Origin: Pleurotus ostreatus/Saccharomyces cerevisiae fusant
Lineage: Eukaryota; Opisthokonta
Reading direction: 5' to 3'
Assembly (NCBI GenBank): GCA_024196135.1
Contig: JAMQCK010000062.1
Location: 1-64,000, forward strand
Length of the DNA: 64,000 nucleotides
Shown: one piece after another, positions 1,841-45,494 of the stretch
Numbering within the stretch: position 1 is the first letter of the stretch
How the letters are laid out: the number at the start of each line of letters is the position of its first letter
Notes under the pieces: model-generated
Told to the model about the DNA's origin: nothing
Databases searched by the model: none
What the model saw: the letters and a program-made list of their open reading frames with translations, nothing else
Program-made: the position numbers and the translations under genes

Positions 1841-2016
1841 TTGTCTGCGCAGACCGCCCATTCAGTGCCGGCTTCGAAGCCTTGTCTTGTATGCTGCAGA
1901 CAATCGAAAGACAACGGAGATTACCGGGGTGAGGATAATCGCAGCACATTGCAAACGGCGCGGTCGACATGAGGCGCGTAAGCGCCCAACTCTATCATGT
2001 CACGCGCGTTGTCTGC
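1841..2016. promoter_or_regulatory. TTGTCTGC sites upstream of gene A
   Basis: Copies are at 1841-1848 (+), 1896-1903 (-) and 2009-2016 (+). The first is part of a perfect 12-bp palindrome, GTCTGCGCAGAC, at 1843-1854. The spacing upstream of the gene A start (1635) fits promoter operators. Function is inferred only from the enrichment near this gene family. Confidence 0.4.
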
Positions 2017-2392
2017 TATAGATGACGGATAAGCATACGTCAACGTTCGTCGCAAAGGGAAGTGTACCGGTAACGCACGATGACTGAACAGGCACCGACG
2101 AAGCCGTAAAGCGCATCGGAATATTGGCGAGTCTGGAAAAGCACAGGTCACGGTGTGCCGCTGATCACTAGAGTCGATAGGCTTGCGATAAGCGCTTTGA
2201 GAGCGTTTGAGCGAGAATCGCATGGATCCTGTTGCAATCAGAAAATGAAGTCGCAGTGCGATGATGGTGAAAGTGGGCGAGAGCTAGGACAAGTCACGCG
2301 ACCCGCGGCGTGACCATAGCAGCTCGGCACCGAGCCTCAGGCCTCAGCTCCCAAGTTCGAACAGGTGAGGTCGGTCAGACAGAAAACGTATA

Positions 2393-2400
2393 GCAGACAA
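2393..2400 (-). promoter_or_regulatory. TTGTCTGC site between genes A and B
   Basis: This is an isolated copy (GCAGACAA on the plus strand) about 760 bp upstream of gene A and 220 bp past the stop of gene B. It is followed on the plus strand by TCGAG. Its role is unknown. Confidence 0.3.
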
Positions 2401-2621
2401 TCGAGTAGTATTCTGTCAATATATACGTACATAATAGCGGCGGCTCATTGTATCGGGAGAATGGGTTATCGAAGGGGTGCACCTCTGGCCATGATGCCGT
2501 TCATGGCGACGTTGTTGCATAAAAGCCACTCGTCGCCTCAAGTCACACGTCGACAGCGCCAAACGCTGGTGGCGGTCGTCAGCAATGACTTCAGTGCCGT
2601 GGCAACCTAGGCACCGTACCT

Positions 2622-3561
2622 TCATACTTGACGCTGGGCGTGGACAATCTTGACGTGCCTCTGACGATCATTCTGAGTGTTGAAGCGCGACGAGCAGCCA
2701 GACATCAGGCATGCGTAATCCCTTCGATTATCGTGGCGACGGAAGTGATCTTTCAGGGCATAAGTAGAGGTATACGAGAAACTTGAATAAACACGCACCT
2801 TGGAGGTTCTTCTTCCGCGTGAATGTTTTTAGGCAGCGGTCGCACACGTAGGTAGAGTTGGACGGCGCCAGGGTTCTCCGGCGCTTGAAGGACGCCTCCG
2901 TCTGCGCCTGCGAGCCCACTTCGCGGCGAAAGTTTGCTTGAGGGCCGCTTCCGTCGTCAGGAGCGACGTATGATGAGCTTAAAGTTTCGAACGTCGCATC
3001 CAAGCCGAAGTACGGAGACGTCGAGCTCGGGGGCTGACCTATCAGCGCAACGTCTGGGTATGGAGCCGACGTTGCAGGGGGATATGGAGCGTACGTAGAG
3101 GGCTGCGGACCGGCTCCAGTGAGGATGTCAGGTGTATGAGGGGATGTGGTCGCCACCGATGCGTTGTGGAAGGTATTTTGGTCTGCTGTCGAGCGTTCAG
3201 TCGTATACTCCGAAGAAAAGACAGTTCCCTCGTACCCCAGCTACCAGTTGTGAAGGTTGTATCCGACACGGTACCACAGTTCAGCGTCGGCTTGCAAGTC
3301 GACTCGAAGGGGTTGGGGGGGATCAGTTGGTCGAATAGTCGGTCGGTGGGCCAGTCGTATACTAGGGGGTGTTAGTCGACAGCTGAAGGGGGAGAGAGTC
3401 AGGCGCCTACGTGGCGCAAAGTAGGCGGCCTCGGCGCTGAGTGTGGAGTCGACGCTGGATCGATCGAGCACTGTCATGTATTCGAGCCTGCAGAGGGCAC
3501 TTTTAGAGGCTGAAGCCATCCTCGAGCTCGGCACGCACCAGGTCTCTTCACCGACACCCAT
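2622..3561 (-). CDS. Two-finger C2H2 zinc-finger protein (gene B)
   Basis: Model exons are 3539-3561, 3411-3487, 3245-3361, 2799-3185 and 2622-2749, giving 243 aa. The last three exons are firm. The first exon is less certain because reading through 3488-3538 would also stay open. The linker carries the block REVGSQAQTEASFKRRR, shared almost word for word with gene E. Finger 1 is C-x2-C-x12-H-x3-H (begins CDRC, core FTRKKNLQ). Finger 2 is C-x4-C-x12-H-x4-H, ending RHVKIVH. The phase-1 intron 2750-2798 interrupts finger 1 just before its first His, as in all relatives. It is probably a nuclear DNA-binding protein; the basic stretch KRRR before the fingers could serve as a nuclear localisation signal. 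A TATA box lies near 3631 and an inverted pair of TTGTCTGC sites about 50 bp further upstream. Confidence 0.78.
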
Positions 3562-3626
3562 TATTGAGGAACTCTTTCACAGCCTTGCTACCGTTTGGTG
3601 TGGTCCTTCCCATCGTTGGTTGGGCT

Positions 3627-3635
3627 CCTTTATAA
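3627..3635 (-). promoter_or_regulatory. TATA box of gene B
   Basis: The minus strand reads CTTATAAAGG here, about 67 bp before the proposed ATG at 3561. That spacing suits a short 5' leader and supports the chosen start region. Confidence 0.5.
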
Positions 3636-3678
3636 GGGCGGTTTGGCACAGCACTTGTAAATAACACAGCGGCGAGCA

Positions 3679-3750
3679 TTGTCTGCTCGGAGAGCAGACA
3701 AGTGTCGCGGAAGATAGGACTGGAACGCATTAGGAGGTAGAAGCAGACAA
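3679..3750. promoter_or_regulatory. Inverted TTGTCTGC pair plus third site upstream of gene B
   Basis: Two copies face each other as 10-bp arms, TTGTCTGCTC at 3679-3688 and GAGCAGACAA at 3692-3701, with a 3-nt spacer. A third copy is at 3743-3750. All sit 45-120 bp upstream of the gene B TATA box. An exact inverted repeat in this place is typical of a dimeric operator; the binding protein is unknown. Confidence 0.5.
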
Positions 3751-5366
3751 CGTCGGTCATCACGCTGCGCTGCGTGCACCTTCGGCCCGAAGCAGATCAA
3801 CTCCGGAGGCCAGATTTCACTTGACTCACAAGGAACATTCGATGTTCGAATGCTGGTATGCGGCTGGTGAATATCAGTCTTCCACCGCGGATGAAGAGTA
3901 CAGCTTGACGGCAACGGCCTCTCCTGGACATCAGTATGGGTGGTGAGGTCGTCGATGACTGACCGCAGTGGCGATGATCCTATTCCTGCGATCACGATTG
4001 ACTGAGCTTTTCAGCTGTAAATTGGAAAAGATAATCTCGTACTCACGGGAGCAGGCATGTGAAACGCTCAGTACGACACGGAGTGAAGGCATTCCGCTTT
4101 GTAAGACGTCGACAACCGGTCCAGGACAGGACACTCGACTTGTGGCGAGCCCGGGATTGCCGAAGATACGAATTTCCCCTGGGTATGTCACTTGCTCGAG
4201 GCCCCGCTCATGCTACAGCAGAGACATACCATGATACCATCTAGACCCAATGATCTGCTGATCCTAGTAACTTACCGCCCCTCCCCCCGCCCTCGACTGC
4301 TGCACATCGTTACTAGTTATCTGCTCAGTAACGCAAAATGCGTATTCGGGTGGCACCGTCTGATCCGCCGATTGTGGTACGTGCGGCTTACAACGCGCAT
4401 AATCATGTACCTCCTGCTTGAATCCTTTGATGCAGTGAGATCACCTCTAATAGGCCCGTTGGCAGACTTACAAGTCGCGGTGAGGTAGAGTAGAATATGG
4501 CCAGCGAAAGGGGAATAATCACGTGACAAAGGCAGTAGCCTGCCGGTCCAAGTGCCGATCAATGTTGAAGTGCTTGTTGCGGCAATCTCAGAATCTAAGT
4601 CCGTGTTACCTGTCATTCAGCGTAGACGAAAAACTCAATGCGCGCTGAAGAAGGCGACGAACCTTACAGTCACCATGTGTCGAAACCCGCTGACGACAAT
4701 GCCAGGTATGCATGCTAGACCATCGCGGGAGGCAGTGGCTGGCGGTGGCCCCAAGCGGTAACGCTCCCGTAGAACGATTACTGTGGTCTAGGGATATCGT
4801 GCCGCGAGTTAGATGAGGTGTATATTTTGGTTAAGGTAACGCAGAGCAGCTGGTCTTGCCTGCGCTGTTGCATCCGGTCACGGTGATGAACCGTCCGAAA
4901 ATTTGTGGGCGGTGGGGGTAGCAAACGGTAAGGCTGCAGTGACCGGCTATACGGATACGAAAGTGTGAGAGGCGCTTCCGGTGGTGACCTCCGCAGGATC
5001 TCTGGCGTAGACATGAAAGCGGAAGGGAAGATCGAGTGCCACTGACGACACGAGGGAAGACGTCGAAGGCGGCCCATCTGATAGCTCCCCGTCCCTTGAT
5101 GATATCCACCGTTGACATTCGTGGGACTCGCGCTCAACAGAAGACTGCTGCTGAGTAAGACGATCTCTCGTCGTTGTGGCGGACGTGTAGCCGGAGATGA
5201 CGCCCGTGCTCCTGTACTTGTCACCGCCGTTCTCAGGAGATTTCCCTCCAGGACGTGTGTTCGAGAAAGTATCTGTCCAGGAAGTCGACAAGAAAACTTT
5301 CAATATATAGCACAACAGAGTCCGAGATACGTACTACAAAGACCGATTCATAAGTAGAATAAATGG
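3751..5366. other. Intergenic region, no confident gene
   Basis: Minus-strand ORFs at 4778-5224 and 4947-5315 are the longest, with a TATATATTG element near 5305 that could start a transcript. Neither has recognisable domains, and I could not find a splice form giving finger motifs. They may be a decayed gene or chance. Confidence 0.35.
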
Positions 5367-6071
5367 TTACGACTCAAGACCCGAAGCCTTCTCCTTATGG
5401 GCGTTCGCGCAGTGGCTTCTCAGGAGCCCGCGGTGGTTGAAGCGCTTCCCGCAAGAGGGCACATCGCACACAAATTTCAGCTTGTTCTCGTGCGACATCA
5501 AGTGCACTGTAGCGGGTCGTCGGACGATAGCCTGCAACTGTGTAGAGATTTACGCACCCTTCAAATTGCCCTGCCTGGTAAAGGTGGACGTGCACCCCGT
5601 CAAAGGACAGGGAATAACGGAGGCTTTAGTGTCCTTTCGTCGGGCAGCCGCCGCCTTTTGTCGGAGCGTCGTCGACACGACGCGGGGAGGCAACATCGGC
5701 GGGCCTTCCGGACTGGGCGTCAGTGCCTCAGACGATGGAGTCGTCGCCTCCGACTCGGAGTTGGGGTTTGCAGCCGAAGGACCTTCGCTCGCATCAGCCG
5801 CCGTCGCGAGCATGATAGCAGAGTAGCAGGCGTCCCATTCCTCGGGCGTCAATACATGGCCCGATGAAGTCACCTCTGGAGAACTTGACGGTATCTCTAG
5901 AAGTCCGAGCGCCAGATCTGGCCCTAGAATATCGAGAAGGAGCTCGAGCTCGTCCGCGGAGAGCTCTATCGTCACGCGGGCGGTAAGTTATAAGATCATG
6001 GGGAAAGCACAGTACGCACCGAGTACTTCAGGTTCGTTGGATGTGGATTGGTAGTCTGAAGAGTTCTGCAT
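5367..6071 (-). CDS. Two-finger C2H2 zinc-finger protein (gene C)
   Basis: Three exons, 6020-6071, 5558-5965 and 5367-5506, code for 199 aa with both introns in phase 1. The N-terminal third is acidic (start MQNSSDYQ, then a Leu/Asp/Glu-rich helix-like stretch LSADELELLLDILG). That could be a transactivation segment. Finger 1 begins CPLTGC (C-x4-C-x12-H-x3-H). Finger 2 begins CDVPSC and has the core RFNHRGLLRSH. Intron 5507-5557 cuts finger 1 at the family position; here the split codon gives Val. A TATATAA element lies 40 bp upstream of the ATG. It is a paralogue of genes A, B and D-F. It has only near matches to the TTGTCTGC octamer upstream (about 6443 and 6517). Confidence 0.8.
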
Positions 6072-6110
6072 AGTCGCTTGTTCTGGCCATTAGAGTGGGG
6101 GCTTGCGAGG

Positions 6111-6120
6111 GTTATATAAC
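6111..6120 (-). promoter_or_regulatory. TATA box of gene C
   Basis: The palindromic GTTATATAAC lies 40 bp upstream of the gene C ATG on the minus strand. It supports the start at 6071. Confidence 0.5.
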
Positions 6121-7276
6121 CCTCTCTCCGACATTCTCTGTATGTTTGTACGCAGAGCGTTGCAGGCCACGGGCAAGATGTCAACTGACAAGATGAGAAT
6201 GTTTGGCGGTCGAATGAGCGGTCAACTTGCGAAGAATGAGGAGGGAATTAAGTCACGCACTTACCATATAGGAGGAGCCCTTTTCCACGTCCTGGTAAGG
6301 CTCAAAAGAATGGCGACGGGAGAGAGCGCGGATGCGCATACCGAACTCCAGCCACGGGATTTAGAGATCGAAAATGAACCGCGTCGGCTGCGGCCAACGC
6401 CAGCAAATGACCCAACGCGTCATCCTTGCCGACTAGCGGCAAGCAGACGAGCAGTACAGCAGTAATTGACAAAATCCGAGAAGTAAACGACAAGAGCAAG
6501 CAACGGTTGCGGGCAGGCAGACACGAAGAGGCTCAGCAGTCGTTTGTTCGGTGCGCACAGGGTGCCGAGACCATCATGTCCCCGGCGGCTCGCGACGAGA
6601 GTAACGCAGCCTCGTTTATGCTGCATCCATGGCTTGAGAGCCACACATCTGCCTCATATGTTGTCCGCACGTCATCCGATGGAGGCAGCGCAAAGTCGGC
6701 ACGGCTTGTCGTCTCTTCGCATACAACCAAGTAGCGTGAGGCGGGAATTTTGACGTGAAGGGGAGCGGTTTGTGAGACCCTACACAGAAGCAGAGCCTGT
6801 CCGCTCTGATATAGAGCGCGGAGGCTCTGCAGAGTCGACGGCTGTAGTCCGTGATGGCGGCGAAAGTCAACCTGGGTTTGCTGATGAGTCACACTCGTAT
6901 TCACGGCCACGTGCATTTTTGGCCATCCCCTTGCGGCTTGCTATCGCCCACCCTGGCCGACGCCGCCGTGTCGTCTCAACCAGAAAGATCACCAGGCCTC
7001 CTTACGATGCACATCTCCTAACCATGATCTGCAGATCATAGACCGCTGCATACCCTAGGGGATATCCGGGCAGAATGTTGCACACATTCCATCCTCTATC
7101 TATCGCTTTTGTCTCCTCAAGTCACGTCGTCCGATGAGATAGTAAATTTGCATACACATGGCCGATAGATTACAATGGAGAATACAAGCCCGTCGAGAGA
7201 GAACAGTGGGAAATAGATAGAGTAGTGCGTCAGGTTCTAAACTCGTGTATAGCTACGATTTGTCCAGTTGAATATC
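6121..7276. other. Intergenic region between genes C and D
   Basis: Several 60-130 codon ORFs overlap on both strands at 6100-7040, but none shows a domain or a consistent splice model. No gene is supported. Confidence 0.45.
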
Positions 7277-7336
7277 AGAAGAAGAAGAAGAAGAAGAAGA
7301 AGAAGAAGAAGAAGAAGAAGAAGAAGAAGAAGAAGA
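7277..7336 (+). repeat. (GAA)n microsatellite, about 20 units
   Basis: This is an uninterrupted GAA/AAG trinucleotide run of about 60 bp. It lies about 160 bp downstream of the gene D stop on the opposite strand, so it may be in or near that gene's 3' UTR as (TTC)n. It is probably polymorphic in length. Confidence 0.95.
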
Positions 7337-7495
7337 CTCATGAGATGTGAGTACAGGCGCACGATACACAAAGAGTACGCTGTCGCCAATGCACAAGGAC
7401 AGGTCCATGACACCATGATGGAGGTACGCGTATAGGATGTGAAATCTACTCGAAAAGCATCAGGTGAAGCGAGGTGACGAACATCGAGGCCTACC

Positions 7496-8513
7496 TTAAA
7501 TTGAACTTGCCCTCTGGGGAGGACGAATCCCGTGGATTCGGAGCTTATGGCTCCTCAAGAGTCCCGCCGTGTTAAAGCGCCGCTTGCAAGCGCCAACGTC
7601 GCACCAATACTCCAGTCGATTATAGTGCAACTTCATGTGCTCTGCGCGACGGGATTGTAAGCGTGTCGTCCTCGATTACTTGCTCAGTAGGTGCGCAAAT
7701 CCTTACCGGCACGGTTATGCTCCCGGGTGAACGTAGACCTGCAACCGTCCCACTGGCAAGGGATGGTGTTGCCAGATGGGTTCGCGCGCCGCGCCGCGTT
7801 GGCCCTCTGCCTGTCCTGCGTTGATACGGTATCGCGGTGGGTGGCTGACGACTTGGGCAGGGAGGCTCCCATGTCATCGTTTGAGCTAGTCTTTACCTGC
7901 TCCGCCGTAGCCGCAACAGCAGCAGCCGTCGCGGCAGGCGCATGTTCAAAGTCAAGCATGTCGACGTCGAGATCCTCGATCAGAGGTTCCTCGAAGTAGA
8001 GCCCAAGGCCGTGCTCGCACTTTATGTCATTGGCCAGCCGCTCTGTGCCGCCGATGAGCACGGGCTGACGCAAATAGCAGGCAACGTACCGCCTTCCACG
8101 TTCCAGCCGACACCGTGAGCATGCTCGGGGTCCGCGTGTTCAACAGCAGGGCCTTCGGTTGCTGTTGATCAGGTCAGCCGCGAGCAGAATCGGGCGCAAA
8201 GGACGTACGGGTGGCCGAAGGGAAGCCTAGGTCCGGAGCCACGTCCATCGGGACGGGAGTGAGCGTAGAGGAGTAATCCACGGGGAAGGGATCCATTGGA
8301 GGGTCGAAAGGCTGAGCGAGGTGTTGTTTGGGAGTAAGTTGTTGCTCGCCGAGGAGGGCCTCATCGTAGGTCGAGGCAGCAGGGTCAGCAGGGAACCAGG
8401 AAGGGTCAACGCCGTGCCAAAAGATGTCTACGAAAACGAACGTTAGTCAACGCGAGGTATAGGACGGTGATACTTGTCTTACAGTCCTCGTGTTGGTCCG
8501 CGCTGTATTCCAT
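7496..8513 (-). CDS. Two-finger C2H2 zinc-finger protein (gene D)
   Basis: Five exons, 8483-8513, 8209-8427, 8090-8161, 7707-8042 and 7496-7641, code for 267 aa. All four introns are in phase 1, as in gene A. The first 200 residues are Pro/Asp/Ala-rich and disordered (start MEYSADQHED). Finger 1 begins CQWDGC (C-x4-C-x12-H-x3-H) and is split by intron 7642-7706 before its first His. Finger 2 begins CDVGAC with the core RFNTAGLLRSH. A TTTAAAT element near 8600 and a TTGTCTGC site at 8612 are immediately upstream of the start. It is probably a nuclear DNA-binding protein with unknown targets. The protein is closest in finger 2 to A and C. Confidence 0.8.
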
Positions 8514-8611
8514 GTCTCCTGGGTGTCAATGTCGACTGAGCTGAGCGGCGGTGACGGTGGGTTGTGGTGAGCACATTTGAGTGTTTGCAAAGGTCATTTA
8601 AAGGCAGGCGG

Positions 8612-8619
8612 TTGTCTGC
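8612..8619 (+). promoter_or_regulatory. TTGTCTGC site next to gene D TATA-like element
   Basis: The octamer lies about 100 bp upstream of the gene D ATG, directly beyond a TTTAAATG element at 8596-8603. This is the most promoter-proximal copy in the left arm. Confidence 0.4.
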
Positions 8620-10049
8620 CCAAGCAGTCTTCTCCGACAAAGTTCGCGGCTGAGGCGTGGGCGTTGTCCGAGAAGAAGGCAGCCAACACCGAGAAGACAT
8701 AAATAATCGACGGTCAGGGAGGGAGGACGAGGAGGCTGCTGCCGCAGAAAAAAAAAAACAGAGAACATACATCGATGTGCGGCGGCGAGTCGGTAGGCTA
8801 CGCGATGTTCACCGACCACGGAGGACGGCGTCGGAGACGCCGTTCGTGCATCTAGGTAGACGGGAGGAGGCCACGAGCCACATAGCCGCCCAGGGGGGGT
8901 GCAGACAAGAATTCAACCCGGGCGGCACGCGACAGCCCAATCCTGTTGCCTGCTTATGACCAGTTCTGACCCTTCTGGCGGTTTAGCGTGCGTCGCTTGC
9001 GCGAGTGGGGCTCGCCACGAAGCAGCACGGGGAGGGGTCTGCAGACAACTGGAAGACCGTCTTCGAGGCCGCCGAGAACGTCCGCCGTGCCGGGATCATC
9101 CGCCTCTATTGTCTGCTTGTCTGCTCGTAGATGCACGCCTCGCATCACTCGCCTATCTTCGCGCATCGCGCGCGTTCGGCGCGATCCCGACGATTCCTGG
9201 AACCTGCGCAGAATTTCTGTTCAATTTTGTATCGGTCGCGCAGAGGTGAGGGAAGTAAGATACTCACTATGCGGCCTGCCCCAGACAGAATGAAGGGAAA
9301 ATGACGGTAAATGTTTCCATTTTCTCCCTCTCATGCTGCAGAGGAGGTCAATGTAGTGGTCTCCAGCCGGAGCTGAATATTTCTATAATTTACTTTCAGC
9401 GAAGGAAAGGATTTTCTAGGCAGAGATTCGATGGATGCAGTGTATCAGCGCCCGGCGAAGGGGAATGAACTGGTATCATCAATGGATTCATCTGCCTCAT
9501 GCGGGCCAACGTCGGTGAATGGCTGATCATGGAGGGAGGCAAGATGCGATCACATGTATTCCCACGTGCGCGGCGGCTTCATCTTGCGTCCTACCGTCAT
9601 CTCGCCAGCAAACCACCATATACCCCATCCTCCCCACCCTGTACCTTCCTCCCTTCGACCCCGCCAACAAACATTGCGCCCTTCTTGACTCTCATCTGAC
9701 TCCTGTCAACGGCTTCGAAACCCAAGGACGCGAAGATCCGAGCCTGTACGTGTTCCCCTACGTCTCCAGTCGCGCCCTCGATCCCGAACGATATACATGA
9801 ACACGCACAACAGTGTGGGCTGAGGAAAGCACCCCCTCAGCGTGACTTGTCCACATTGCCCTTCAATTCCCCGTACATCCGCTGTCACCTTGACCGGTGA
9901 ACGCGTCTCTCAGTGCTGCCCTGCCGAACCAGATGCACCTATGCCTACACATCTCGTCGCTTGTACTCGTCCCCTTGCATATCGCCACGTAGAGTGGACG
10001 ACATCAATCCCCTAGCTCACATCGTAATGCAGAGACTACACCTGCTATC
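8620..10049. other. Intergenic region between gene D and the ELMO gene
   Basis: No gene is supported. The region includes an A-rich run near 8750, four octamer copies at 8901-9124, and the 5' flank of the ELMO gene, which is C/T-rich (9590-9700). Confidence 0.45.
8901..9124. promoter_or_regulatory. Cluster of four TTGTCTGC sites, two in direct tandem
   Basis: Copies are at 8901-8908 (-), 9041-9048 (-), 9109-9116 (+) and 9117-9124 (+). The last two abut head to tail. The 9041 copy lies in a palindrome, GTCTGCAGAC. The cluster is 390-610 bp upstream of gene D and about 930 bp upstream of the ELMO gene, so assignment to D is inference. Confidence 0.4.
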
Positions 10050-13000
10050 ATGTCCGCTGGCGAGACCTCCGCTATCCCCTCAGGCTCGTCTGCACCAGCC
10101 AAGGCGCCACAGAAGACCCTTGTCCCCACCAACACGGTGCTCACGCCCGAGGGACACCAAGTGCGCGCGCGAATTGACCCGACGTTGACCGTGGCGGACG
10201 TGGTGAAGCAGCTGGTCCTGAACCTCAAGCTCGATGAGCCCCCCACCAACTTCGCGCTGAGGAGCGATATGGACGAGCTGGTGACGAATGATAACATGCG
10301 GAAGATGATCAAGGGGAAGGCGAACCTCAAGTGCGTGTGCTTGCTGTTCAATTTGAACTACGAGCTGATGGGGAGGTCACTATCAGACTCGTCAAGTCGC
10401 CGAAGCGGGAGGCGAGGGATATAGCACACAAGCTGAGCGAGCGCGATGATAAGAACCTCAAGTTCTCCCTCTTCTCACTCCAGAAGCATATCAAGGTGCG
10501 TGGCGTGCTTCATATGCGAGTCAATCTCAACGCAATCTTATCCAGGAGGAAGACTTCGCGCACGAGTTTATCAACTCCGGAGGCGTCATGTACCTCGTCG
10601 AGACCATATACGCTACGCACGGCAACACCCTCGCAGTGCGCATCTATGCCCTTCCTCCGTACTTTTCCCACTGACTTCGAGACGCAGTACGCCCTTACCG
10701 CCATGCAAAACCTCATGGAACTCGACTACGGTTGGGACACCCTCGACGAGCACTTCATCTACAAAGTCGTCCAGATCCTCTCCTCCCCGCAGTCCCTTAT
10801 CAACGTCTGTCGCCCCGCCACGGCGATCCTGAAGAAGTTCGTTGAGGCGGATCCGGCGAATACCACGTCGGCGGGCTCGACCAGTAGTCCGGTCGTGATA
10901 CCGCCCGGGTCGGTCGACCGCTATGGGTTCACGATCGTGTTCGAGCAGATGCGAAAGCAACGAGGATTGTTGGAGACCGTGATCAGCAGATTGGGGAGTG
11001 CGGACACGGCGATGGCGCTGCATAGGTGAGCAGTGCAGTGTACGCTTTCGCTCGTGTATCTTACTTGACAACAGCATGATGTTGATCAACTCCCTGCTTG
11101 CGCATGCCAAGGAAGATCGTTGGGAAGAGTTCGTCACTGAGCTCGAGAAGCTGAACATACGCAAGGCCGTCGTCGTGCGTACTCACTTCCCTCCCTTGCC
11201 TCTCCGCCTCATCTAACATACCTCTTCAGCGTCTCATGGCTTCGCACACCATGGAGGACCTCTCTTCCAGCATCCTCGACTTCCAGGCCAACATCATCCG
11301 CATCACGAACCGCAAGAAGATGACTATGGTCGAGCCGGGCGTGGAGCCCGGGCACGCGGCAGCGCTCAAGTTCATCTGGCTGAACAGCAAGCTCGAGGAA
11401 GAGAAGGACGAGCTGGGGCAGACGCTGAAGTGGCGGAAGTTGGGCTTTGAGAGCGAGGATGTGACCGCGGGCTTCCATGATGTGGGCGTGCTGGGCTTGG
11501 AGTGTTTGGTGAGTTGACTTGGCGAAGTGGAGATATTTGAATCTGGCGCTAACGTTTCTACAGCGTAGCTTCGTCCAGAGCAATCCGGAGTTCTCCAAGG
11601 TGCGGCTTCGAACACTTCACAACGTCGACAACCTTGTACTGACTACCTCCAAGCTCGTCTACGAGCAACTCAGCCGCCCTCAAGAGCGCCGCTGTCCCAT
11701 CGCGCGGGCGTCCAACGAAGTCGTCGAGCTGCTATCGGAACACTGGGCCATCTTCGCACCCGGATGTCAGTGAGAACCTCCTTTTGCCGTTTCAGCCGAG
11801 GCCGAAGTGGCGCGCGCTGTGTTCCGATGCTGTTGCGCTCGGAGAGGTTGGCGCGCTCCGGCCTCTCCTTCGTCCTTCCTCTTGCCCTCATTTTCGTCTG
11901 CTAACCACTCTCTTTTCGACCCTATACCTTATAACACCTGACTAACGCTCTCATATAATCCGCAGACTCCACCTCAACCGCCTTCCAGCCTTTCTTCCTC
12001 GACTTTGCCCGCGTACACGCGCTCGCGACGCACTTCTTCATTCGCATGTGGACGGAGAGTGGCGCGGCGACGGATAGCAACGCCTCTCGGGACGACTTCA
12101 ACCGGATTGTTGCCTTGGTGCGCAGCCAGTGAGTGTCATTCCCCTTCGTTACGCCGGCGTCGAGGCCATTCGTCGTCGCTGTGGTTTGGTCGCGGTCCTG
12201 GTCGTTGTGGGCGTGCTCGTTGACGCTGCGGGACCCTTGTCGCTGCCGTGAGGCGTTTATTTCCGCTACAAGGGTCCGTTCCACGTCGCCCTGGGCCCTG
12301 CCATCGTCACCAACAGAGACCCTGGCTTGGGGCTGACAATTTACCCCAGGATCAAGGTCGCGTTGCGAGACGAGAACACGCGCTCGTGGAACGAGGTTGA
12401 GCGGGACTTCCTTGACTCGGAGTATCGTGCCGTGCGGGATAGGCAGATGAAGGAGCTCGAGCTTGAGGATGACTTGCTTAGCAAGGTTCCGGTCAGGTAT
12501 GCTGTGTCTGAGTCTGTGGGGAGAACATGGATCACTGATCACGGTGTGCAGGAATCTGAAGAAGAAACTTTACAAGGAGTCCTTCGAGTTCGTCCGCCAG
12601 CAGCGAATACAGTGCTTATTGCAGGGCGCTTGGTTCATGAATGGGGTTCCTGTCGGTTCGTCAGGCTCAAAAGAGTCATCGCGAAGACCTGCACGGCCAT
12701 GGCGCTTCATGCGGATTGTAAGTACACTATTAGGTGCTCTATGACAGTCTGTTGACACTTGTACAAGGACAACGGCCTCCGATACCTTCACTACGTCGAC
12801 AGTGCCGTCAAGTTCCCTGTCCGCGCCGGACTTGAGGATCTGCCGGAGCGCATTGACATATCCGCCATCAGCGAAGTCGCAACCGGGACCTGCGCGCCAC
12901 CCGCGCACCTCCACGACGGACCTGCGCCCGGCGAAGCATCTCCACTCTCGTTCTCCTTGCTCAACGCACACGCGGGCTCGCTAGCAGACCAAATCGCGCC

Positions 13001-13287
13001 TGATGCAAGTCGGTGGGCAGACTGGACGGATGGGCTGAACATGGTGCGCCCAGACGCCGGGCATGTGGCGTCGCAGGAGACGGCAGGCTTTGTGGACGCG
13101 TTGACGGATATTGGGCTGAAGATTCAGTTGTTGAGTGAGTTGTTTGTTCGTATGTGGTATGTGCTGGGATCCGCTGCTGATGCATGTCCTTGCAGATCTG
13201 TCGGGCGAGATGGTGGATATACCCAGCGGACTGTCAGCAGGGCAGCCGCCGCGAGATCAGGATTTCTTCTTCGCGGACTTTGCTTGA
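10050..13287 (+). CDS. ELMO/CED-12 family protein
   Basis: Thirteen exons: 10050-10330, 10387-10495, 10546-10635, 10688-11025, 11075-11174, 11230-11508, 11564-11599, 11654-11765, 11966-12128, 12350-12496, 12552-12717, 12768-13134 and 13196-13287. They code for 759 aa, and all junction phases agree. The ELMO signature is clear around residues 390-470 (WRKLGFESED; GVLGLECL; FSKLVYEQ across a junction; CPIARASNEVVELL). It is followed by the post-ELMO block RDFLDSEYRAVRDRQMKEL and a C-terminal PH-like region with FVRQQRIQCLLQGAWF. In animals ELMO proteins pair with DOCK exchange factors to activate Rac at the membrane; in this fungus a DOCK partner is expected but not in the window. Two introns, 11766-11965 and 12129-12349, are four times the usual length. 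Confidence 0.88.
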
Positions 13288-32596: not shown

Positions 32597-32618
32597 AATC
32601 GGGGTGAGAAGGAAGGGT

Positions 32619-32626
32619 CTTTATAG
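32619..32626 (-). promoter_or_regulatory. TATA box of U2 copy 1
   Basis: CTATAAAG on the minus strand lies about 25 bp before the presumed U2 5' end. Copy 2 has CTATAAG at the equivalent place. Confidence 0.5.
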
Positions 32627-34691: not shown

Positions 34692-35255
34692 CGCTTTTCG
34701 ACGGTGTACTCCTTCGTTACTGACTTTCTCCAGCGCACTCCTGGTTCCTCAGCGGGCCGGCGCCGTCTCCTAGTGAAGGTGCAGAAAATGGTTGAATATC
34801 AGCGCTCACCAGGGCCATATTGGTTGCTGTCCAGTCCCTAGTTCCCACCAATCTGCAACGGCATGCGGGAGTCCACGCCTATTTCCTCGTCAGCAGCGTG
34901 TACCGGGCAAGCAATCGAAGCGACACGACTTGCTGAGCCTGCGAACCCAACCCAACGCGAGCGGATGTCCACCGTGAACGACCATACTAGGATCAAAAGG
35001 GAATGATGCTCCCCTGTCACCCTCTCGTCTTACAAACACCGTCGATGCGTTGAGGAGATCTAGTCAAGTACCGTAAGGACACCCACTTCATATATTTGTT
35101 TGGCCGCACGATACACCTGTTACGCAAGACATCTTCCTCACCTTGTCAACGTCGCGATTCACCGTGTTGTTCTGAAACTGAATTCGGAGGCATAACAATA
35201 CGATGGAACCAACTCGCTACGTGAGAGCTTGCCATTGGTTCTATCGACTCCACAC
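34692..35255. other. Intergenic region between convergent genes
   Basis: It contains only the 3' flanks of the F-box gene and ERG4 copy A. No feature is supported. Confidence 0.5.
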
Positions 35256-37155: not shown

Positions 37156-38123
37156 GGTGGTCGTTGCGGACGTCCAAACGCACCTTTGCAATTAAGGCAG
37201 GAAAAGATGGTACGATTTGGGTGCCTCCTGAGCGCTGGGCGACTCAGGGCGTTCTCCGCAGGTCGGCATAGCGTCGGCACAAGGAACAGAGACGGAGACG
37301 AGTACCAAGATACGCGTTTGAGAGGCTTTTACCCACGTCATGGGCTTTATTGTCCGTTTCAGGACGCGCAAACATGGTTATCTTGCTTCGATGGACTTGG
37401 AGAAAGCCTGCCTATTTCCCAGAATGCGATCCGGGTGTCGTTTGTCCAAGGAAAACGATTCCGAGGCGTCGAAGAAAGGCCTGAAGTGGCCTCTACAGTT
37501 GAGTCTGTAGTGATACCTCGGCCATTATAATCTTCGTAGCAGTGTCGCCCTTCCGTAAGAATGCGGATTCATTCCGGATTACGAGCACAAGGAGCGTAGC
37601 AGGATAAATGCTTCTGCGAAAAGGCTCGCTTCTTCGGCGGCTGGACATAGGCGATAGCACAGGCAGTAATCGAAAGAGTGTAGGTAGATGAGAGAAAGAA
37701 GAAGAGGCCACACCGTGTGAAATGAACGATCGCACGCTCACGTGTGAAGTTGAAAACATTCTTGCCTCTGTCTTGTCGTCCCTGTAAGCTTACAACTCTG
37801 TACCCGTAAGTAGCTACAGATACCAAGATGTGCCAGGCACCTCTGACCATTGCTGGCTTGATCCGGTCGAAGTCAGAATGCGGCTCGTGCCGCGTGCAGT
37901 TGGTGAAGGAGACCTTCGTTGGGTCGAAAAGACTAATCTTGGGAAGTGTAACACCAATGATGGAACTTGGCGATGAGTCATCCCAGTCTTCCGCCCAGAC
38001 ATGCTGTTGAGAGTTATCCCTGCGTCTACATCCTATTCCATCCATATCCATTTGAGCCCACCCTCCCCTCGTCGACAGACGAGCGAATAGAGTGAAGCTC
38101 AAAGGGAGCAGAAGAAGAGGGTT
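37156..38123. other. Intergenic region between ERG4-A and U2 copy 2
   Basis: A long minus-strand ORF at 37569-38138 overlaps the U2 3' end and has no coherent domain. No gene is supported. Confidence 0.45.
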
Positions 38124-38311
38124 CCCCCGACGACACAAGCCGGTACTGCAGCGGCAAGGTCATCGCGTCCCCAGGTTGCAAGCAGAGCCCAGGGAGCAGG
38201 GGCGACAAAAATTGGATAACCATAACACGAAGCAGTGCTTCGGTAAAAGTGGTTAAACTTTTAAGAACAGATACTACACTTGATCTAAGCCAAAAGGCCA
38301 GAGTGGTGAGG
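38124..38311 (-). ncRNA. U2 spliceosomal snRNA, copy 2
   Basis: It has the same hallmark blocks as the copy at 32409. The 5' half is identical over the branch-recognition region through the Sm site (AATTTTTG, 38206-38213). Only a few substitutions fall in the 3' stem-loops, for example GCGCCCC versus GCGTCCC. Flanking sequence diverges quickly except for the TATA element CTATAAG at 38335-38341. The pattern fits two working genes kept alike by selection or gene conversion. The ends are placed by alignment to copy 1. Confidence 0.92.
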
Positions 38312-38664
38312 AAACCGGGTGAGAAGGAACGGCTCTTATAGCGGTGGGGGACGCACGGACCAGTGCCGGCTAGATACATAGTAGCTTCGGTGATCGGGGA
38401 TGTTGAAGTTTGGGACGCACGTGAGATTCACGTGTTCGCGTTTGGGGCGGGAACTTCAAGTTGAAGCTCTAGGCTTAGCCCAACTTCTAAGTGAGGCCCA
38501 TTGGAGCTGACCCTGCTGCAGTATCTCACATTGCTACTGATCAGAAAGCTTTGATTGGCTGCCACACAAAAGGTTGGACAGGATTGTGCACGGAAACAGG
38601 TCACATTCGCGAGCCCTTCAACCGCGACAGCAACAGATTACAGTGAGTACTTGCAGCCCTTACT
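38312..38664. other. Promoter region of U2 copy 2 and 3' flank of RED gene
   Basis: It contains the U2 TATA element near 38338. Nothing else is recognised. Confidence 0.5.
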
Positions 38665-40156
38665 TCAGCTCGGCGGCGCAGCGGGCGCACCTCCCGTGCC
38701 CTTCTTCTTCTTTTCTTTCCTCTTCTGCCGCTTCTCCAATGCCTCCCTCGCCTCATCCATCGCCAGCAAGTCCTTGATCGACGGCACGGCAGATGACTCC
38801 AGCGGCGCAAGGCGCGCGGGCGTCTCGTCGTCGGACTGCACCTCGCCATCCTCGGCACCAACTGCAGGAGTCGCCTTCTGCTTGCCCTTCGCCTGCTTGA
38901 GCGCCTTAAGCGCCGGTGGCGTTGCGGGTCTGGGCGGCAGGACGGGTTCCCGTGGTTCATCGTCGTCGAACCAGCGCGCGCGGGGTACGGACAGTTCGGT
39001 CTGCTCAACGCCCTGCATGGCGTTGGGGTCGGTAGGTGCTGTTCCTGATACCTCGCCGGGTTCCGCGCTGCCAGGCCGTGGCCGTGCATCTTCGTGGTCG
39101 CTCGCATCCTCCTCGTCTGGTATGCCCTCGTAATCACCCGCTCCGGCGAAGATATCGAAATCTTCGGGTATTGGCTCGGGTGAGGGCTCCTTCGGTCTCG
39201 TAGGTTGCGGCGCGGGCGCAGGCGTCGCTGAAGTTGAGGCTGGTGGTGGCGCAGACTCGGCGGCAGCTGGCGATGACGCTTCTCCTGCAGCCGATGCCTT
39301 CCCCTCGCCGCCCTCAACCTTGCGCTTCTTCTTTTTCCGCTCCCCGTCTCCCTCCGTCTTCGCTTTCTTCTTCTTGGGCTTGTCCCCCGCGGGCTTGAAT
39401 CCGATCGACTTGAACTTGCTCTTGTCGATCGTCTTGTCCTCCTTCGGCGGCAGCGCAGTCGCAGCGACGGGTGCATCGGTCGCGGCCTGCCCCTTCCGCT
39501 TCTCCTTTATCTGCTTGATGATGTCGGCGCGCGAGCGTTTCTTGGGTGCGTCGGCGGGTGCGGGGGAGGCCGAGGCTTCAGCAGGTGGCGAGACGTCTTC
39601 ACCGCGGTATGCGGCTTCGAGGAGGTCGTCATCGTCGGTGTTGCGTGATTCCTTCGCGCGGTTGGCTTCGAGGAGGGACAGATCGAGTCCCTTCACGAGT
39701 ACAGTGTGCGTGCTGTCGCCACCGAGATAGCGGCGTTGCTGTTCGACCTAAGATAGTGTTAGCAAATGCATCAGTACGAGGCGAAAAGACCCACGTACCA
39801 CATCCTTGTCCTCATTCGCCGTTCGCTTCTCAAAGTCCTGCAGCAGAGCTTCCGCCTGCGCGTAGTCGCTCGCCTTCCCCTCTCGTCGTTCGGAGGCGCG
39901 ATCACGATATTTGCCCTCGGTCTGCTTCTTGACCTTTCGCGGCTGGAAAGCCGGCTTGGACGCGTCTACCGCCTTGCTTCGCGAGCTGTCAGGATGTGGG
40001 GGAACGGGGGAGCGTGTGCACGCACGGTTTAGACTTGTCCGGCTTCCCATTGGCCTTGTCCCTCGGAGGAGCGGGGGTGCTGAGTAGTTTCCTGAAAGAA
40101 TCCTACTGCCGTGAGTACGTCTTCCCCTCGGCAGCGAGTCTCCGCACCTGGTCCAT
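38665..40156 (-). CDS. RED/IK-type splicing factor
   Basis: Four exons, 40148-40156, 40026-40102, 39799-39985 and 38665-39747, code for 451 aa. The RED N-terminal domain is clear: MDQDSFRKLLS, then GKYRDRASERREGKASDY, then RRYLGGDSTHTVLVKGLD directly after a phase-0 junction. RED (human IK, nematode SMU-2) is a component of the spliceosomal B complex in the nucleus. The rest is Lys/Glu/Pro/Ala-rich and disordered (KKKKRKVEGGEG), with the conserved DFDIFAGAGDYEG near the middle. The first exon is only 9 nt (Met-Asp-Gln). It is required to give the family start and would be missed by most predictors. A weaker alternative start is the ATG near 40254, whose frame lacks the family N-terminus. Confidence 0.88.
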
Positions 40157-40332
40157 CGAGGCGGGAGGAGAGCGAGGCCCGAGGTCAAAGCGCGGGCCAT
40201 TCTGCTAAGTCCGGGCGATGTGGCGGGCCGCTCACTTCGTTTCGACGTCATCACCTTTGGACGCGCCGACGCGTCCTGCCGCTCCTTAGCTTTCTACCAC
40301 CACCTTCTTCGGCCTGGTTGCCGTCCTCCAAC

Positions 40333-42546
40333 ATGCCCGTAGACGCAGCAGCGACGACGACAGAGGCGCTTGCCGCGCGGACCGGCGGCGAGGGGCTCGA
40401 GACGCCCGCGGGCACCCTCTACGTCTCCAAGCCCTTCCGCTCCAAGTCCTCCAAGAAGCTGCGCGCCCTTATCACCTTCACCCCCCGCAAGTCCGCCTTT
40501 GACACTACCAACGAGCTGAGCGGGGCCAATGAGTTCCGAGTGCGTGCTGTCGTGTCCCCTCGTACTTCACCTCGTACTGACCTCCCTCACAGGGTTTCTT
40601 CACCCTCTTTTGGATATCCATGTTCATCTTCACCATCCGGACGTACATCTCCAGCATAGAGACCCAGGGCGCACCGCTCAATCTCGCTTTCGCTACCATG
40701 TTCTCGCAGGACGCAGTAACACTCTTCTGGAGCGACATGTTGCTTATCGCCAGCTCCGTCCTCTGCGTCCCCTTCGCCAAGGCGATTGCGACGAACACCA
40801 TACAGTACTACTGGACTGGTGTCATCCTTCAGCACATTTTCCAGACTTCCATCCTCTTCATTGCCGTCTCGTGGACATACCACAGGTATGCACCTCCCCT
40901 CCGCCCTTGACCGCTCTTCCCGCGTTGACGTGCACGTCTGCAGGCAATGGCCGTGGGTTCAGTCTGGCTTCCTCACCCTGCACACCCTCGTACGTGTCCC
41001 CTCTGCCCCTCCCCCTCGCTCCATCAGTGCCACCGCCTCGTCTCACCGCCACCTAGGTCATGATCATGAAGATGCACTCCTACATCAACGTGAACGGTTA
41101 CATGCAATACATCACCGCTCAATCGCAACAAGTACTTGACCAGATGCGCAAGGCTACCGAGACGATAGGCGGGGGCTGGGACCATGCTATCGAAGTCGCG
41201 AAAGCGCACCGCGCAGAGCTTGACAATGCCGCCGGAATGTCGAGCGGTACGGACTCGCCACCATCGATGGACACGACGCCGCCGGTCATGGCCACTCCAC
41301 CTATCGCTACGGGCGCGAGCGCGTCGTATGTGGACGCCGACACCGCGACCGCCCTCCGCAAGCGTCTCGCTTCTGTAGCGCCCGGCGTCGCCAACGATAT
41401 GCGCAAGGCCGAGAAAGCCCAGGAAGCAGCAGCAGCCGACGAGAAATCCGGCGTCCGTACGCACGTCGTCAGCGCCCTTGAGCCGCACCCGCTCGTCGAC
41501 CACCCGAACGAGGAGATCGCGCAGATGGCGAAGGACTACTCCGAGATGCAGGGCGAGCTGACGAGCACGGGGCCCGAGCGGATAACGTGGCCCAACAACG
41601 TCACGTACAAAAACTTTGGACTGTACTTGTTGATCCCGTCGTTGGTGTACGAGCTGGAGTATCCGAGGACGGATAAGTACGTGCTTTGTCTGACCCAGGA
41701 CCGACTGACGTGCTTACCTCTCCGCATAGAATCCGCCCTATCTACGTCTTCGAGAAGGTCACTGCCTTCTTTGGGTCTTTCGCCCTCCTCTACACCATCA
41801 CCGAGACCTTCATCCTCCCGAAGATCCCCACCGCAGACCAGTCGTTCCTCCTGAGCCTCCTCGACCTCGCGATGCCGTTCATGTTCGGATACTTGATGAT
41901 CTTCTACATCATCTTTGGTGAGCGCGGTCGTCGTTCATCTGCCTCTTCTCACGATATTGACGCCGTCTCGCAGAGTGCATCTGCAACGCCTTCGCCGAAA
42001 TTTCATAGTGCGCCTATCTCCTTCTCTCCTCACCCACTCCCCATACTCACCGCCAAACCCCTCCCCACCCAGCTTCGCCGACCGCCAATTCTACGAAGAC
42101 TGGTGGAACTCGACCTCCTGGGACGAGTTCTCGCGCAAGTGGAATCGGCCGGTGCACTCGTTCCTGCTGCGGCATGTGTACGCGTCGACGATTACGGGGT
42201 ACGGGCTGTCGCGAACGCAGGCGATGTTCGCGACGTTCTTGTTGAGCGCGTGCGCGCATGAGCTGGTGATGATTGTGGTGACGCATAAGATTAGGTGAGT
42301 AGGAGGGCCATTCTTGAGCGTCGGGCGTCTAGCACTCGCCTCGACCAGATCCAGCAGAAATACGCACTTTACTGACGCAGCCTTTCCAGGATGTACCTCT
42401 TCTCCCTCCAGCTCATCCAGATTCCGCTCATCGCCATCGGACGCCATCCGGTCATCAAACGCAATAAGTTGGCTGGGAATATCAATTTCTGGCTCGGCTT
42501 GTACGCGGGCTTCCCGCTGCTTTGCGTGGCATACTGCGCGTACTGA
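40333..42546 (+). CDS. Sterol O-acyltransferase (ARE/ACAT type, MBOAT)
   Basis: Eight exons, 40333-40539, 40593-40885, 40944-40989, 41057-41676, 41730-41917, 41974-42007, 42073-42294 and 42390-42546, code for 588 aa. It esterifies sterols with acyl-CoA in the ER for storage in lipid droplets. The MBOAT hallmark FYEDWWN spans the junction after exon 6, and the catalytic His is in SACAHELVMI. Multiple membrane segments are visible (TLFWISMFIFTIRTYI; FLLSLLDLAMPFMFGYLMIF). A Ser/Ala/Asp-rich cytosolic loop lies near residues 215-290. It belongs with the two ERG4 copies in sterol handling; it is divergent from RED (about 175 bp between starts). Confidence 0.92.
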
Positions 42547-43574
42547 GGGGAAATTATGAGGATCAGTGTCGATCGCTTGGATAGATGGAGAGCGGCCTAC
42601 GAGTGCGCTCCTCCGCGCTCAAGATGTGGGAGGGTAAGGGTCGTGGAAAACGGAGAGGACGGTGCACCGAGCATTCTTCTCGCTTATTTATCTACGTCGA
42701 TATACTGCTGTGGGATCATCCATACGCATGCTACAGTACCTATCTCAGTAATTGCATAGTTCCGGGCTGTATTATAGCACGGGGAATTCTTTCTTTCTTA
42801 TCTTGTCCCAAGCCTTCAGTTCCGTCTGAACTGTCGGAAACCGAGCCAAAACGATGGTACTCCTCTGTACATCCACGTAAAATTGTCATGATACTTGACA
42901 CTACAATACTCTCGGCCTTCAACTTGCCCTCGGCGGGGGCTTTCCCTTTTAAGTCACACTGAATTGTGTGACATCGTGACAATCGCTGCTTGCCACCTCC
43001 CGTCTCGTGTTGCCCCCTCCATCATCATAACTCTCCCTTGGACCCTTGTACCTCGTCCGCAAAATTTCACGCTCGAATCATACGACTCTACATCGCCCAT
43101 GACGCATTCGCGCAGATGGCGCCCTAAACTCGCGAGGTCGCAGCATGGCCGCGACGCTGCCTTCCTCAAGTCAGGATAGCCCATCGCACTCATATCGATG
43201 TCTACCGCCAACAAGACCGTCAACCAACCGTCAAAACACAGCCCGACCGACAACTGCAGACAACGCCGCCACAGCTTGCGTTCGAGAAGCCGACAATGGG
43301 CACGTGCGTTGTCTGCCACTCAGTCCGCTGCGCGCGGGTTCCGGAATGAAAGAAGGCTTCGAGATCCCTAGTACGATGAGTTGTCGGCACGGGAAGAAAG
43401 GAGGGTGTGCAAGGCACGTTGCCGCCATTCCCGTAAGATGCGGGGCTCGAAGCGCCGCATATGAATACGCCATTGTCGGGCTCAGTCCACCAATGCTCTG
43501 ATGTGCAGGCGAACATCCATACGGGGGATCCATATCCGAGCAATGCACACCAGCAGTCAACGCTTGCCTATAAG
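42547..43574. other. Intergenic region upstream of gene E
   Basis: No gene is supported. It contains two TTGTCTGC sites about 260-320 bp before the presumed 5' region of gene E, and a TATAAG element at 43569-43574. Confidence 0.45.
43256..43316. promoter_or_regulatory. Pair of TTGTCTGC sites upstream of gene E
   Basis: Copies are at 43256-43263 (-) and 43309-43316 (+), both in the extended form CGTTGTCTGC, 53 bp apart in opposite orientation. This mirrors the arrangement upstream of genes A and B. Confidence 0.45.
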
Positions 43575-43936
43575 ATGTTACAAGACGTCCTCCACCCCAC
43601 ACGATGGGCCCTCTGCACCCTTCGAACGTATGTCGCCTTACGGCTACCTAGATATGCTTACTAACCAATTATCTCTAGATCCTTCGAAACATATATTGAA
43701 GAGAACACGAGCCCCTTCGACGCTCTCACATCCTTCACCAATCAAGACGTAAGTTAGTGGCCACCCTCGTTCAAATCCGTTCGCTGATATTTGCAAGTGG
43801 CAGATATGTACATACAAACGCCGCCTCACTGCGAGAACGACAGACGAGAGGCGCCTCGAGTCACTCAAGTCAATTTTGGGATTGAACATTCATCGCAATG
43901 TGATTTCGGTGTGTCCACTCGCATTTTACTCTGCAG

Positions 43937-44540
43937 GCACGCAGATTGAATTATGGCATAGCAAATCACGACGCCTTTGCTAGCAGCGGGACCGGGACAC
44001 CCTCGGGAAACACTTCCTCTGCATTTGCTCCTTCGGGACCCCCAGCGCTTGTCGATGCTTCTATGGCGCCTATCGTCTACTCTGACGTGCTGTACTGCCC
44101 AGACGAGGTTTATTCGTCCTGGATTCCAGCGACTCTTCCTCACGATCCATCTATTGCCATGACACCTAACGACGACACGCTCTTTCCATCGTCGTGCGCC
44201 CCGGATGTCAGCTCTCTCGAGCACTACAAGCGCGAGGTCGGGTCTCAGGCGCAGACTCAGGCATCACTGAAGCGAAGGAAAATTACACCTTCCGATTCTC
44301 CCAGGCCGTTCTCCTGCTCGCTATGTTCGAAGACATTCACGCGGAAGAAGAACCTCGATGGTGTGTCCAATATAAATCTCACTTCTGCCCAATGCTTATT
44401 CTCGCGTAGATCACAAACTTAGGCACGAGAATAATAGGCAATTTGTTTGCTTCGTCATGTACTGCCTATCGCGCTTCAATACGAAGGGCGATCTCGCCAG
44501 ACATGTCAAGATCGTGCATCGACTCAGATTGCTCTGGTGA
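43937..44540 (+). CDS. Two-finger C2H2 zinc-finger protein (gene E), 5' end unresolved
   Basis: The firm exons are 43937-44360 and 44410-44540. The acceptor CTCTGCAG before 43937 shows that upstream exons exist, probably within 43575-43902. One in-phase chain starts at the ATG 43575, but a TATAAG only 6 bp before it argues against that start. The linker contains REVGSQAQTQASLKRRK, nearly identical to gene B. Finger 1 begins CSLC (core FTRKKNLD, C-x2-C-x12-H-x3-H). Finger 2 begins CFVMYC and ends RHVKIVH. The phase-1 intron 44361-44409 cuts finger 1 before its first His. B and E are the closest pair in the family although 41 kb apart and in opposite orientation. Confidence 0.75.
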
Positions 44541-45494
44541 AGGTAGGACCATTGACATTCAGCCTTGGCGCATTCCCTGACTACCGTTTTTAGCAGCTGT
44601 TTCTCTTCGTTAAATCTCGTTCGCCTGACCCGCTCTGATGCGCTTCTTGTGCTACTGTATATCCTATGGACCTGATTTTTGTGGTTTGTTATAATCTTAT
44701 CGCCGCGATTGAATTGTGTACGAGCGCGATCTTCGATTGTATGCTGTAGCTAATAATACTAGCAGTCGAAGAGCGCCTGTCGAAGCTGGGCATCGTATCG
44801 TGACCTGGCTTCATGAAGGTACGTATAACTCACTGAATGACAGACAATCTGTAGGGAGGGTAGAGCGGCAGCGACCGTCAAGCGTCTTCGGTGATCGTAC
44901 GGAACTGCTTGTCTGCGCCTTCGCAGGCCTTACCTCTTTTGGTCAGTTTGGATCACTTCCTTTGCCCCAATCTGTGGGCACAGTCATCCTTTTCTCTACT
45001 GAATGCCCCACCAGAGTCCCCACGTCGTCTTCCGGAATCATGTTTAACGAGTTATGGCTTTCGTGGCGCCGCTGTATGACAAGCTGAATGATACTTCTCG
45101 AGCATGCAACGCGCGTGGCCCGATAATTTCGCTCTCAACACGTTGTCGGTTTCTCGGTCTTGTACGTTGTCGGTATCCGCAGCCTTGACTGCACCTCGTT
45201 GTAATCGTTCACAGACCCAGTCGGGAGAGCAACGTTCCGTGGCGAGCTTGCAGTCGGTGGTCGCTTCCCGAGTGCTACATGCACGAAATCTGTGGCTCAT
45301 GAGGTGCGTCGCATTTTTTTTCCTCGACAACTCACTGTCGGTTCAAGCACCAGCCATGTCCAAGGCAATAGTCCGATAATCGTTGTCTGCCTTGTCGGTA
45401 CTGGGATCGTTGTCGTCTGTCGTCAATCTTGATATAGCTGGTTGGGCTGGTACATAAACCATGCCTCCCCTCGCCAGACCTCTCTCAGGACGCT
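44541..45494. other. Intergenic region between genes E and F
   Basis: Plus-strand ORFs at 44716-45087 and 45104-45379 have no domain. The stretch carries two TTGTCTGC sites and several related CGTTGTCGG elements (about 45139, 45166, 45409). Confidence 0.45.
44909..45390 (+). promoter_or_regulatory. TTGTCTGC sites and CGTTGTCGG variants upstream of gene F
   Basis: Exact copies are at 44909-44916 and 45383-45390, the latter 105 bp before the gene F ATG. Between and after them, ACGTTGTCGG-type variants occur two or three times. Density and placement match the other family promoters. Confidence 0.4.

Follow-up and report, generated by a model that had tools for sequence, protein, structure and literature searches.

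Zinc-finger genes of the window and their family

The window, as the whole stretch of 64,000 nucleotides analysed here is called, was contig C858, positions 1-64000 (GenBank contig JAMQCK010000062.1 of the Pleurotus ostreatus/Saccharomyces cerevisiae fusant), in a genome of 40,051,388 bases and 1277 contigs. The element under study was the octamer TTGTCTGC (opposite-strand form GCAGACAA; both strands were counted), which was found to be concentrated upstream of an expanded and dispersed family of genes for small two-finger C2H2 zinc-finger proteins. The window was found to contain six such genes, with A to D on the minus strand at ~0.75-8.1 kb and E and F on the plus strand at ~44-47 kb; the predicted reading of gene E requires an intron within finger 1, after ...TRKKNLD. 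The Pfam scan covered four of the six genes (B, D, E and F) as partial proteins, and general C2H2 domains were the only ones found above the cut-off. The domain zf-C2H2 (PF00096, cut-off 25.2 bits) was matched by E with 31.2 bits and by B and F with 28.6 bits each, and the partial protein of D reached 22.8 bits, under the cut-off, with an E-value of 1.2e-4. The best matches among solved structures, by sequence search, were generic C2H2 proteins.

Further members were collected by tblastn with the gene-E fingers as query, which gave 52 matching stretches, and by a second query, which added contig C133. Loci (L plus a number, with a letter for the member where needed; C plus a number stands for a contig) were fetched in order of protein similarity down to C609, followed by the addition of C744, C638, C347 and C133. 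A search for octamer pairs preceded the fetching, and the loci were still chosen by protein ranking. The family defined by protein similarity contained 33 members on 14 contigs, six in the window and 27 elsewhere; L010a, L020 and L021 were included on the finger-1 region only. Weaker tblastn places on C1181, C265, C816, C706, C729, C232, C586 and C96 were left out, those whose alignments were unlike the family by a judgement made by eye, and the conventional zinc-finger genes in L017, L018 and L023 were excluded from the family; no octamer was found in the upstream stretch examined of these excluded genes.

In 28 aligned segments, each covering the last part of finger 1 and the whole of finger 2, the zinc ligands H2, H6, C14, C19 and H32 were invariant and H37 was present in at least 90%; the finger-1 cysteines, which lie outside these segments, were seen in the translations. 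The usual C2H2 linker has a TGEKP-like sequence; the inter-finger linker of this family contained the usual number of residues, but its sequence was not TGEKP-like. The upstream regions of L020 (C609) and L021 (C744) were 86% alike over 2.2 kb, and those of L003 (C861) and L014 (C635) 75% alike over 0.5 kb, each pair being either recent duplicates or two haplotypes.

Octamer count in the window and the genome

The exact count gave 19 octamers in the window, at precisely the 19 coordinates listed in a preliminary description of this DNA, and 16 of them were located beside genes A, B, D, E and F, as had been claimed there. In the shuffled-sequence control for which that description had asked, the mean was 2.20 and the maximum 7, and 19 copies were reached by 0 of 100 shuffles. 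Genome-wide the octamer was found 1776 times versus 1006 for the reversed word, which corresponds to 2.84 per 64 kb, and the window thus contained ~7x the genome average. Four 8-mers of the window were commoner than the octamer, and all four were simple-repeat-like (three AAG words and CGACGACG). The word CGTTGTCTGC was found 173 times in the genome versus 99 for its reversed form, and seven times in the window.

Enrichment upstream of family members

The upstream region was taken as 300-2500 bp before finger 2. The density count comprised the first 30 members (59.5 kb in all), the per-gene count the 32 of the 33 members with 1.5 kb or more of upstream DNA (L004 had none), and the outside-window 8-mer ranking 27 members. 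The upstream regions were found to contain 39 octamers versus 2.64 expected at the genome rate, followed by 2 versus 2.04 expected in downstream DNA not shared with a neighbour's upstream region and 9 versus 6.7 expected in the remainder of the same loci. The upstream density was 0.655 per kb; the genome had 0.044, downstream DNA 0.043 and the remaining parts of the loci 0.060, these backgrounds being mixed coding and intergenic DNA. The case considered in the preliminary description, that the octamer might be equally common in all intergenic DNA, was thus not borne out, with the upstream density set against 0.043-0.060 in the mixed backgrounds. The reversed word was found 0 times upstream, twice downstream and four times in the remainder, and upstream of none of the 32 members. 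A downstream or gene-body signal was rejected on these counts, and the window copies lying downstream of B, C or E were found to fall within the upstream stretch of A, B or F.

The Poisson expectations assume independent sites, and the per-gene counts are insensitive to clustering within a gene. At least one upstream copy was present in 15 of 32 members (~2.5 expected) and at least two in 12 of 32 (0.1 expected). The octamer had been predicted to stand upstream of further members of the family, and outside the window this was borne out, the 24 members counted there having 23 upstream copies in all versus 2.07 expected and 2 downstream copies in 42.0 kb. In the 8-mer ranking, which was blind to the finding, GCAGACAA took rank 1 of 25,113 upstream 8-mers with the window included (39 copies upstream and 11 in the other DNA fetched) and rank 1 of 23,861 outside the window (24 upstream versus 8 in the rest). 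Enrichment of a site in the putative regulator genes' own promoters, which is one mark of an autoregulatory or cross-regulatory operator, was found both over all 30 members (39 versus 2.64) and outside the window (23 versus 2.07).

Arrangement of the sites

The octamers mostly stood 0.86-1.67 kb ahead of finger 2, with single copies at 0.63, 1.92 and 1.98 kb (within 2.5 kb); since this span takes in the coding sequence that precedes the fingers, they lie about at the promoter. Six motif-bearing members out of 15 (genes A and B, L001, L007a, L010a and L022) had a TATA box at 15-120 bp on the downstream side of an octamer, where 2.2 were expected by site shifting (P 0.005). Among the arrangements claimed earlier, the inverted repeat, with 10-nt arms, and the head-to-tail tandem were both present (Table 1).

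Octamer pairs at most 61 bp apart, in any orientation, were found 26 times genome-wide, and 14 of these were located upstream of family members: seven in the window (three from the sites at 3679-3750) and seven on C3, C409, C736 and C625. Outside the window the share was 7 of 19. A tandem repeat of C587 accounts for two of the other 12 pairs, and the remaining ten were away from known members. Pairs in convergent orientation, spaced by no more than 30 nt, occurred twice in the genome, at gene B and at the C3 member. No family member was found within the 3.5-3.7 kb read at the pair loci C3:35115, C198, C476, C897 and C873; the contigs C811, C814, C1075, C447 and C459, whose pair loci were themselves unread, were absent from the family tblastn matches.

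At C587:7942-8019, the source of 2 of the 26 pairs, TTGTCTGC lies within a short tandem repeat. In L026 (C198:30500-34200), positions 1414-1840 were found to contain four octamers in 430 bp; the 3.7 kb read there contained no zinc-finger gene of the family, and this cluster is possibly a target outside it.

Table 1. Positions of finger exons, octamers, TATA-like boxes and the sister word in the window
Feature	Positions	Strand	Basis
Gene A, finger exons	756..1052 (finger 2, 756-866; finger 1 region, 918-1052)	-	tblastn
TATA-like box TATAAGGCG, gene A; nearest octamer 108 bp upstream	1732..1740	-	sequence search
TTGTCTGC, gene A upstream; joins following bases into 12-bp palindrome GTCTGCGCAGAC	1841..1848	+	exact count
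TTGTCTGC, gene A upstream	1896..1903	-	exact count
TTGTCTGC, gene A upstream	2009..2016	+	exact count
TTGTCTGC, gene A upstream side, gene B downstream side	2393..2400	-	exact count
Gene B, finger exons; finger-2 helix TQNDRQR (Asp3/Arg6)	2640..2934	-	tblastn, translation
TATA box TATAAAGGA, gene B; nearest octamer 52 bp away	3626..3634	-	sequence search
Perfect inverted repeat TTGTCTGCTC-GGA-GAGCAGACAA; two octamers (3679 +, 3694 -)	3679..3701		exact count
TTGTCTGC, gene B upstream	3743..3750	-	exact count
Gene C, finger exons; octamer-free for 2.2 kb upstream	5397..5663	-	tblastn
Gene D, finger exons	7532..7845	-	tblastn
TTGTCTGC, gene D upstream; TATA-like TTTAAAT ~14 bp away (by eye)	8612..8619	+	exact count
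TTGTCTGC, gene D upstream	8901..8908	-	exact count
TTGTCTGC, gene D upstream; overlaps palindrome GTCTGCAGAC	9041..9048	-	exact count
Two TTGTCTGC, head-to-tail tandem, gene D upstream	9109..9124	+	exact count
TTGTCTGC, gene E upstream	43256..43263	-	exact count
TTGTCTGC, gene E upstream	43309..43316	+	exact count
TATA-like box TATAAGATG, gene E; nearest octamer 260 bp upstream	43569..43577	+	sequence search
Gene E, finger exons; finger-2 helix TKGDLAR (Asp3/Arg6)	44222..44537	+	tblastn, translation
TTGTCTGC, gene F upstream; lies between E and F	44909..44916	+	exact count
Pair of sister word TTGTCGGT, gene F upstream	45143..45174	+	word search
TTGTCTGC, gene F upstream	45383..45390	+	exact count
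Gene F, finger exons	46726..46997	+	tblastn

Sister word and other features of the window

In the upstream 8-mer ranking a sister word, TTGTCGGT/ACCGACAA, was found 16 times upstream and 6 times elsewhere in the fetched DNA, with ~2.1 upstream copies expected from its 1400 genome copies. Two overlapping, though unrelated-looking, 8-mer families were prominent upstream, GCAGACAA and ACCGACAA, in which the half GACAA is constant and the other half variable; the same two were the commonest upstream words starting with TTGTC. In the tallies of TTGTCNNN nearly all of L011 was counted as upstream of L011a, which itself contained no upstream octamer, and the totals of the octamer (39/11) and of the sister word (16/6) were unaffected. 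The constant and variable halves could arise from a two-finger protein whose first finger is conserved and whose second varies, which is offered as a suggestion only. Direct pairs of TTGTCGGT within 30 bp were found six times, one at the family and two in a single tandem repeat on C91. The sister word did not cleanly track members with a different finger-2 helix: five copies were present in L011c, which contains the Asp3/Arg6 helix described below, and four in L007b, which does not. The 9-mer CTCAAGTCA was found five times in the window, always on the plus strand (456, 2537, 7116, 43165 and 43864), near genes A, B, D and E, and was rejected as a second family element, being confined to the window with no copy in the 29 other fetched loci.

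The minus strand at 47324-53560 was found to contain three adjoining copies of one gene with the common stretch FAGPPRIKKYRE-KILPIEDDED, and four of the open reading frames of these copies gave no Pfam match up to E 0.01. An AAG microsatellite was located at ~7276-7335, ~200 bp downstream of gene D. The gene content, which included an ERG4/ERG24 sterol gene, and the density of introns suggest a fungus, probably a basidiomycete.

Finger helices and the putative binder

The octamer very probably represents a genuine family-wide cis-regulatory element, and it stands upstream of about half of the members. This upstream concentration supports the earlier idea that the family is under shared control, by itself or its siblings or by one outside factor; the binder's identity is a matter on which we infer. 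Some protein presumably binds the octamer, and the fact that site pairs are concentrated at the family, together with the finger helices, would point to a family member. Under the classical zinc-finger code, finger 2 would read 5'-GC through its Arg6 and Asp3, and finger 1 would read A through its Asn3, as in GCAGAC. The Asp3/Arg6 finger-2 helix was found in B, E, L001, L007c and L011c, which contained two to five octamers each, and at least two octamers were present in 5 of 5 such members versus 7 of 27 others (Fisher P 0.004). The likeliest reading, which we consider moderately probable, is that the octamer is the core of a transcription-factor binding site, bound by one or more members of the family, chiefly of the Asp3/Arg6 subgroup, at their own and their siblings' promoters. 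The core subgroup would then regulate itself and its siblings, often via several sites near a TATA box. The several sites, the single inverted repeat and the position near the TATA box would fit activation and repression alike.

Several observations weigh against binding by the family itself. The helix comparison was made post hoc, after the data had been seen, and its five members are probably one clade and hence non-independent, and at least two octamers are also present in seven members that lack the Asp3/Arg6 helix or whose helix was not read. By the same code an Arg at -1 of finger 1 would prefer G, whereas the site has C. No exact upstream copy was found in 17 of the 32 members, gene C included, and the motif-bearing L010a was a weak match in the finger-1 region only (E 0.003), so that without it at least one copy was present in 14 of 31 members and at least two in 11. 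The opposite-strand control of the TATA boxes was raised too (4 versus 1.6 expected, P 0.04), partly because TATATA is palindromic. To these are added the ten close pairs away from known members.

Alternative explanations

The strongest alternative is that one regulator from outside the family binds TTGTCTGC and runs part of the family as a regulon. No test made here requires self-binding, and the octamer precedes members whose finger helices differ greatly and is missing from many others; the 1776 genome copies versus 1006 reversed, and the ten pairs noted above, leave room for further targets. It would be odd, however, for a general regulator to have 14 of 26 close pairs at a single gene family, and every one of the five members whose helix is expected to read 5'-GC carries the octamer. 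An outside regulator is held to be rather unlikely, while still a serious competitor: a core subgroup regulating itself and its siblings would account for all the observations, and an outside regulator would do so nearly as well.

The copies might also be functionless today, either as promoter remnants inherited by duplication or as parts of a dispersed repeat. Duplication gave rise to the family, and several of its members adjoin each other; the flanks of 40 upstream octamers, however, were unrelated, with a weak CG before the site (C in 20/40, G in 24/40) and A/T after it (30/40) and otherwise no consensus. By blastn (E up to 1e-3) among physically separate upstream regions no match was found to cover an octamer. 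The matches that exist mainly join octamer-free members, and the single one involving a motif-bearing member, between L006a and L007c, was located away from its octamers. The number, order and orientation of the sites vary between genes. A dispersed or transposon-borne motif, which the preliminary description had considered as a source of the copies, was rejected on the unrelated flanks and the lack of a site-covering match. The same two results suggest that the octamer was retained, or regained, as its surroundings changed, and the decay of all but the 8-mer would imply selection. Inherited or repeat-borne copies without function are therefore considered very improbable.

An element that works through chromatin or recombination (for example by nucleosome exclusion, by silencing or as a recombination signal) instead of serving as a promoter site would agree with octamer clusters at tandem gene-family loci, and ZNF274 is described as marking zinc-finger loci by chromatin (PMC2999557). 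The sites were nevertheless found on the promoter side, at background level downstream and in some cases near TATA boxes, and such an element is, if anything, a shade less probable still. Chance or base composition has practically no weight. In its favour, the octamer is 1.8x commoner than its reverse genome-wide; it was rejected on the 0 of 100 shuffles, the outside-window enrichment of 23 versus 2.07 and rank 1 of 23,861 there.

Comparison with known systems

Direct transcriptional autoregulation is defined by binding sites of a factor in its own gene (PMC6212560). The present case resembles it in having sites of the same kind before genes for predicted DNA-binding regulators, several per promoter, and differs in that 12 to 15 diverged paralogues, spread over several contigs, share the site and that its binder is putative. 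The human ZNF274 protein is described as binding ZNF genes at their 3' ends and as acting together with KAP1/SETDB1 via KRAB (PMC2999557). The likeness lies in a zinc-finger protein, here putative, whose targets include zinc-finger genes; unlike ZNF274 sites, the octamers were located upstream and not at 3' ends. Silencing of the KRAB/ZNF274 type did not agree with the downstream count of 2 versus 2.04 expected, and no KRAB domain was seen by Pfam in the four partial proteins of B, D, E and F.

A C2H2 survey of 30 Basidiomycota describes lineage-specific expansions with dispersed and tandem duplicates and counts promoter elements, taken from PlantCARE, in 2-kb upstream regions (PMC12295980). 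C2H2 expansion, dispersed and tandem duplicates and upstream elements are shared with the present family; no family-specific site was found in the passages of the survey that were examined, and neither "autoregul-" nor "binding site" occurs in its text (PMC12295980). Among the matches listed for literature on fungal, basidiomycete or autoregulated zinc-finger families no such element was found, and the octamer as a whole word had a sole match, unrelated by its title.

Implications for the family

The family, of at least 33 two-finger proteins, may, as a tentative extension, form a self-referring network in which the core subgroup and its siblings read the shared operator GCAGACAA, and its sister ACCGACAA with the GACAA half kept, in each other's promoters, so that each duplication would add an already wired node and members losing the site would leave. 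To our knowledge, the function of expanded fungal C2H2 families is mostly uncharacterised, and a site marking promoters gives a direct handle on one of them. A motif spotted by eye in one window was found to predict promoters elsewhere in the genome. The question whether mutual regulation holds lineage-specific transcription-factor families together is thereby made testable, followed by the further question of how the wiring changes as finger helices and sites diverge.

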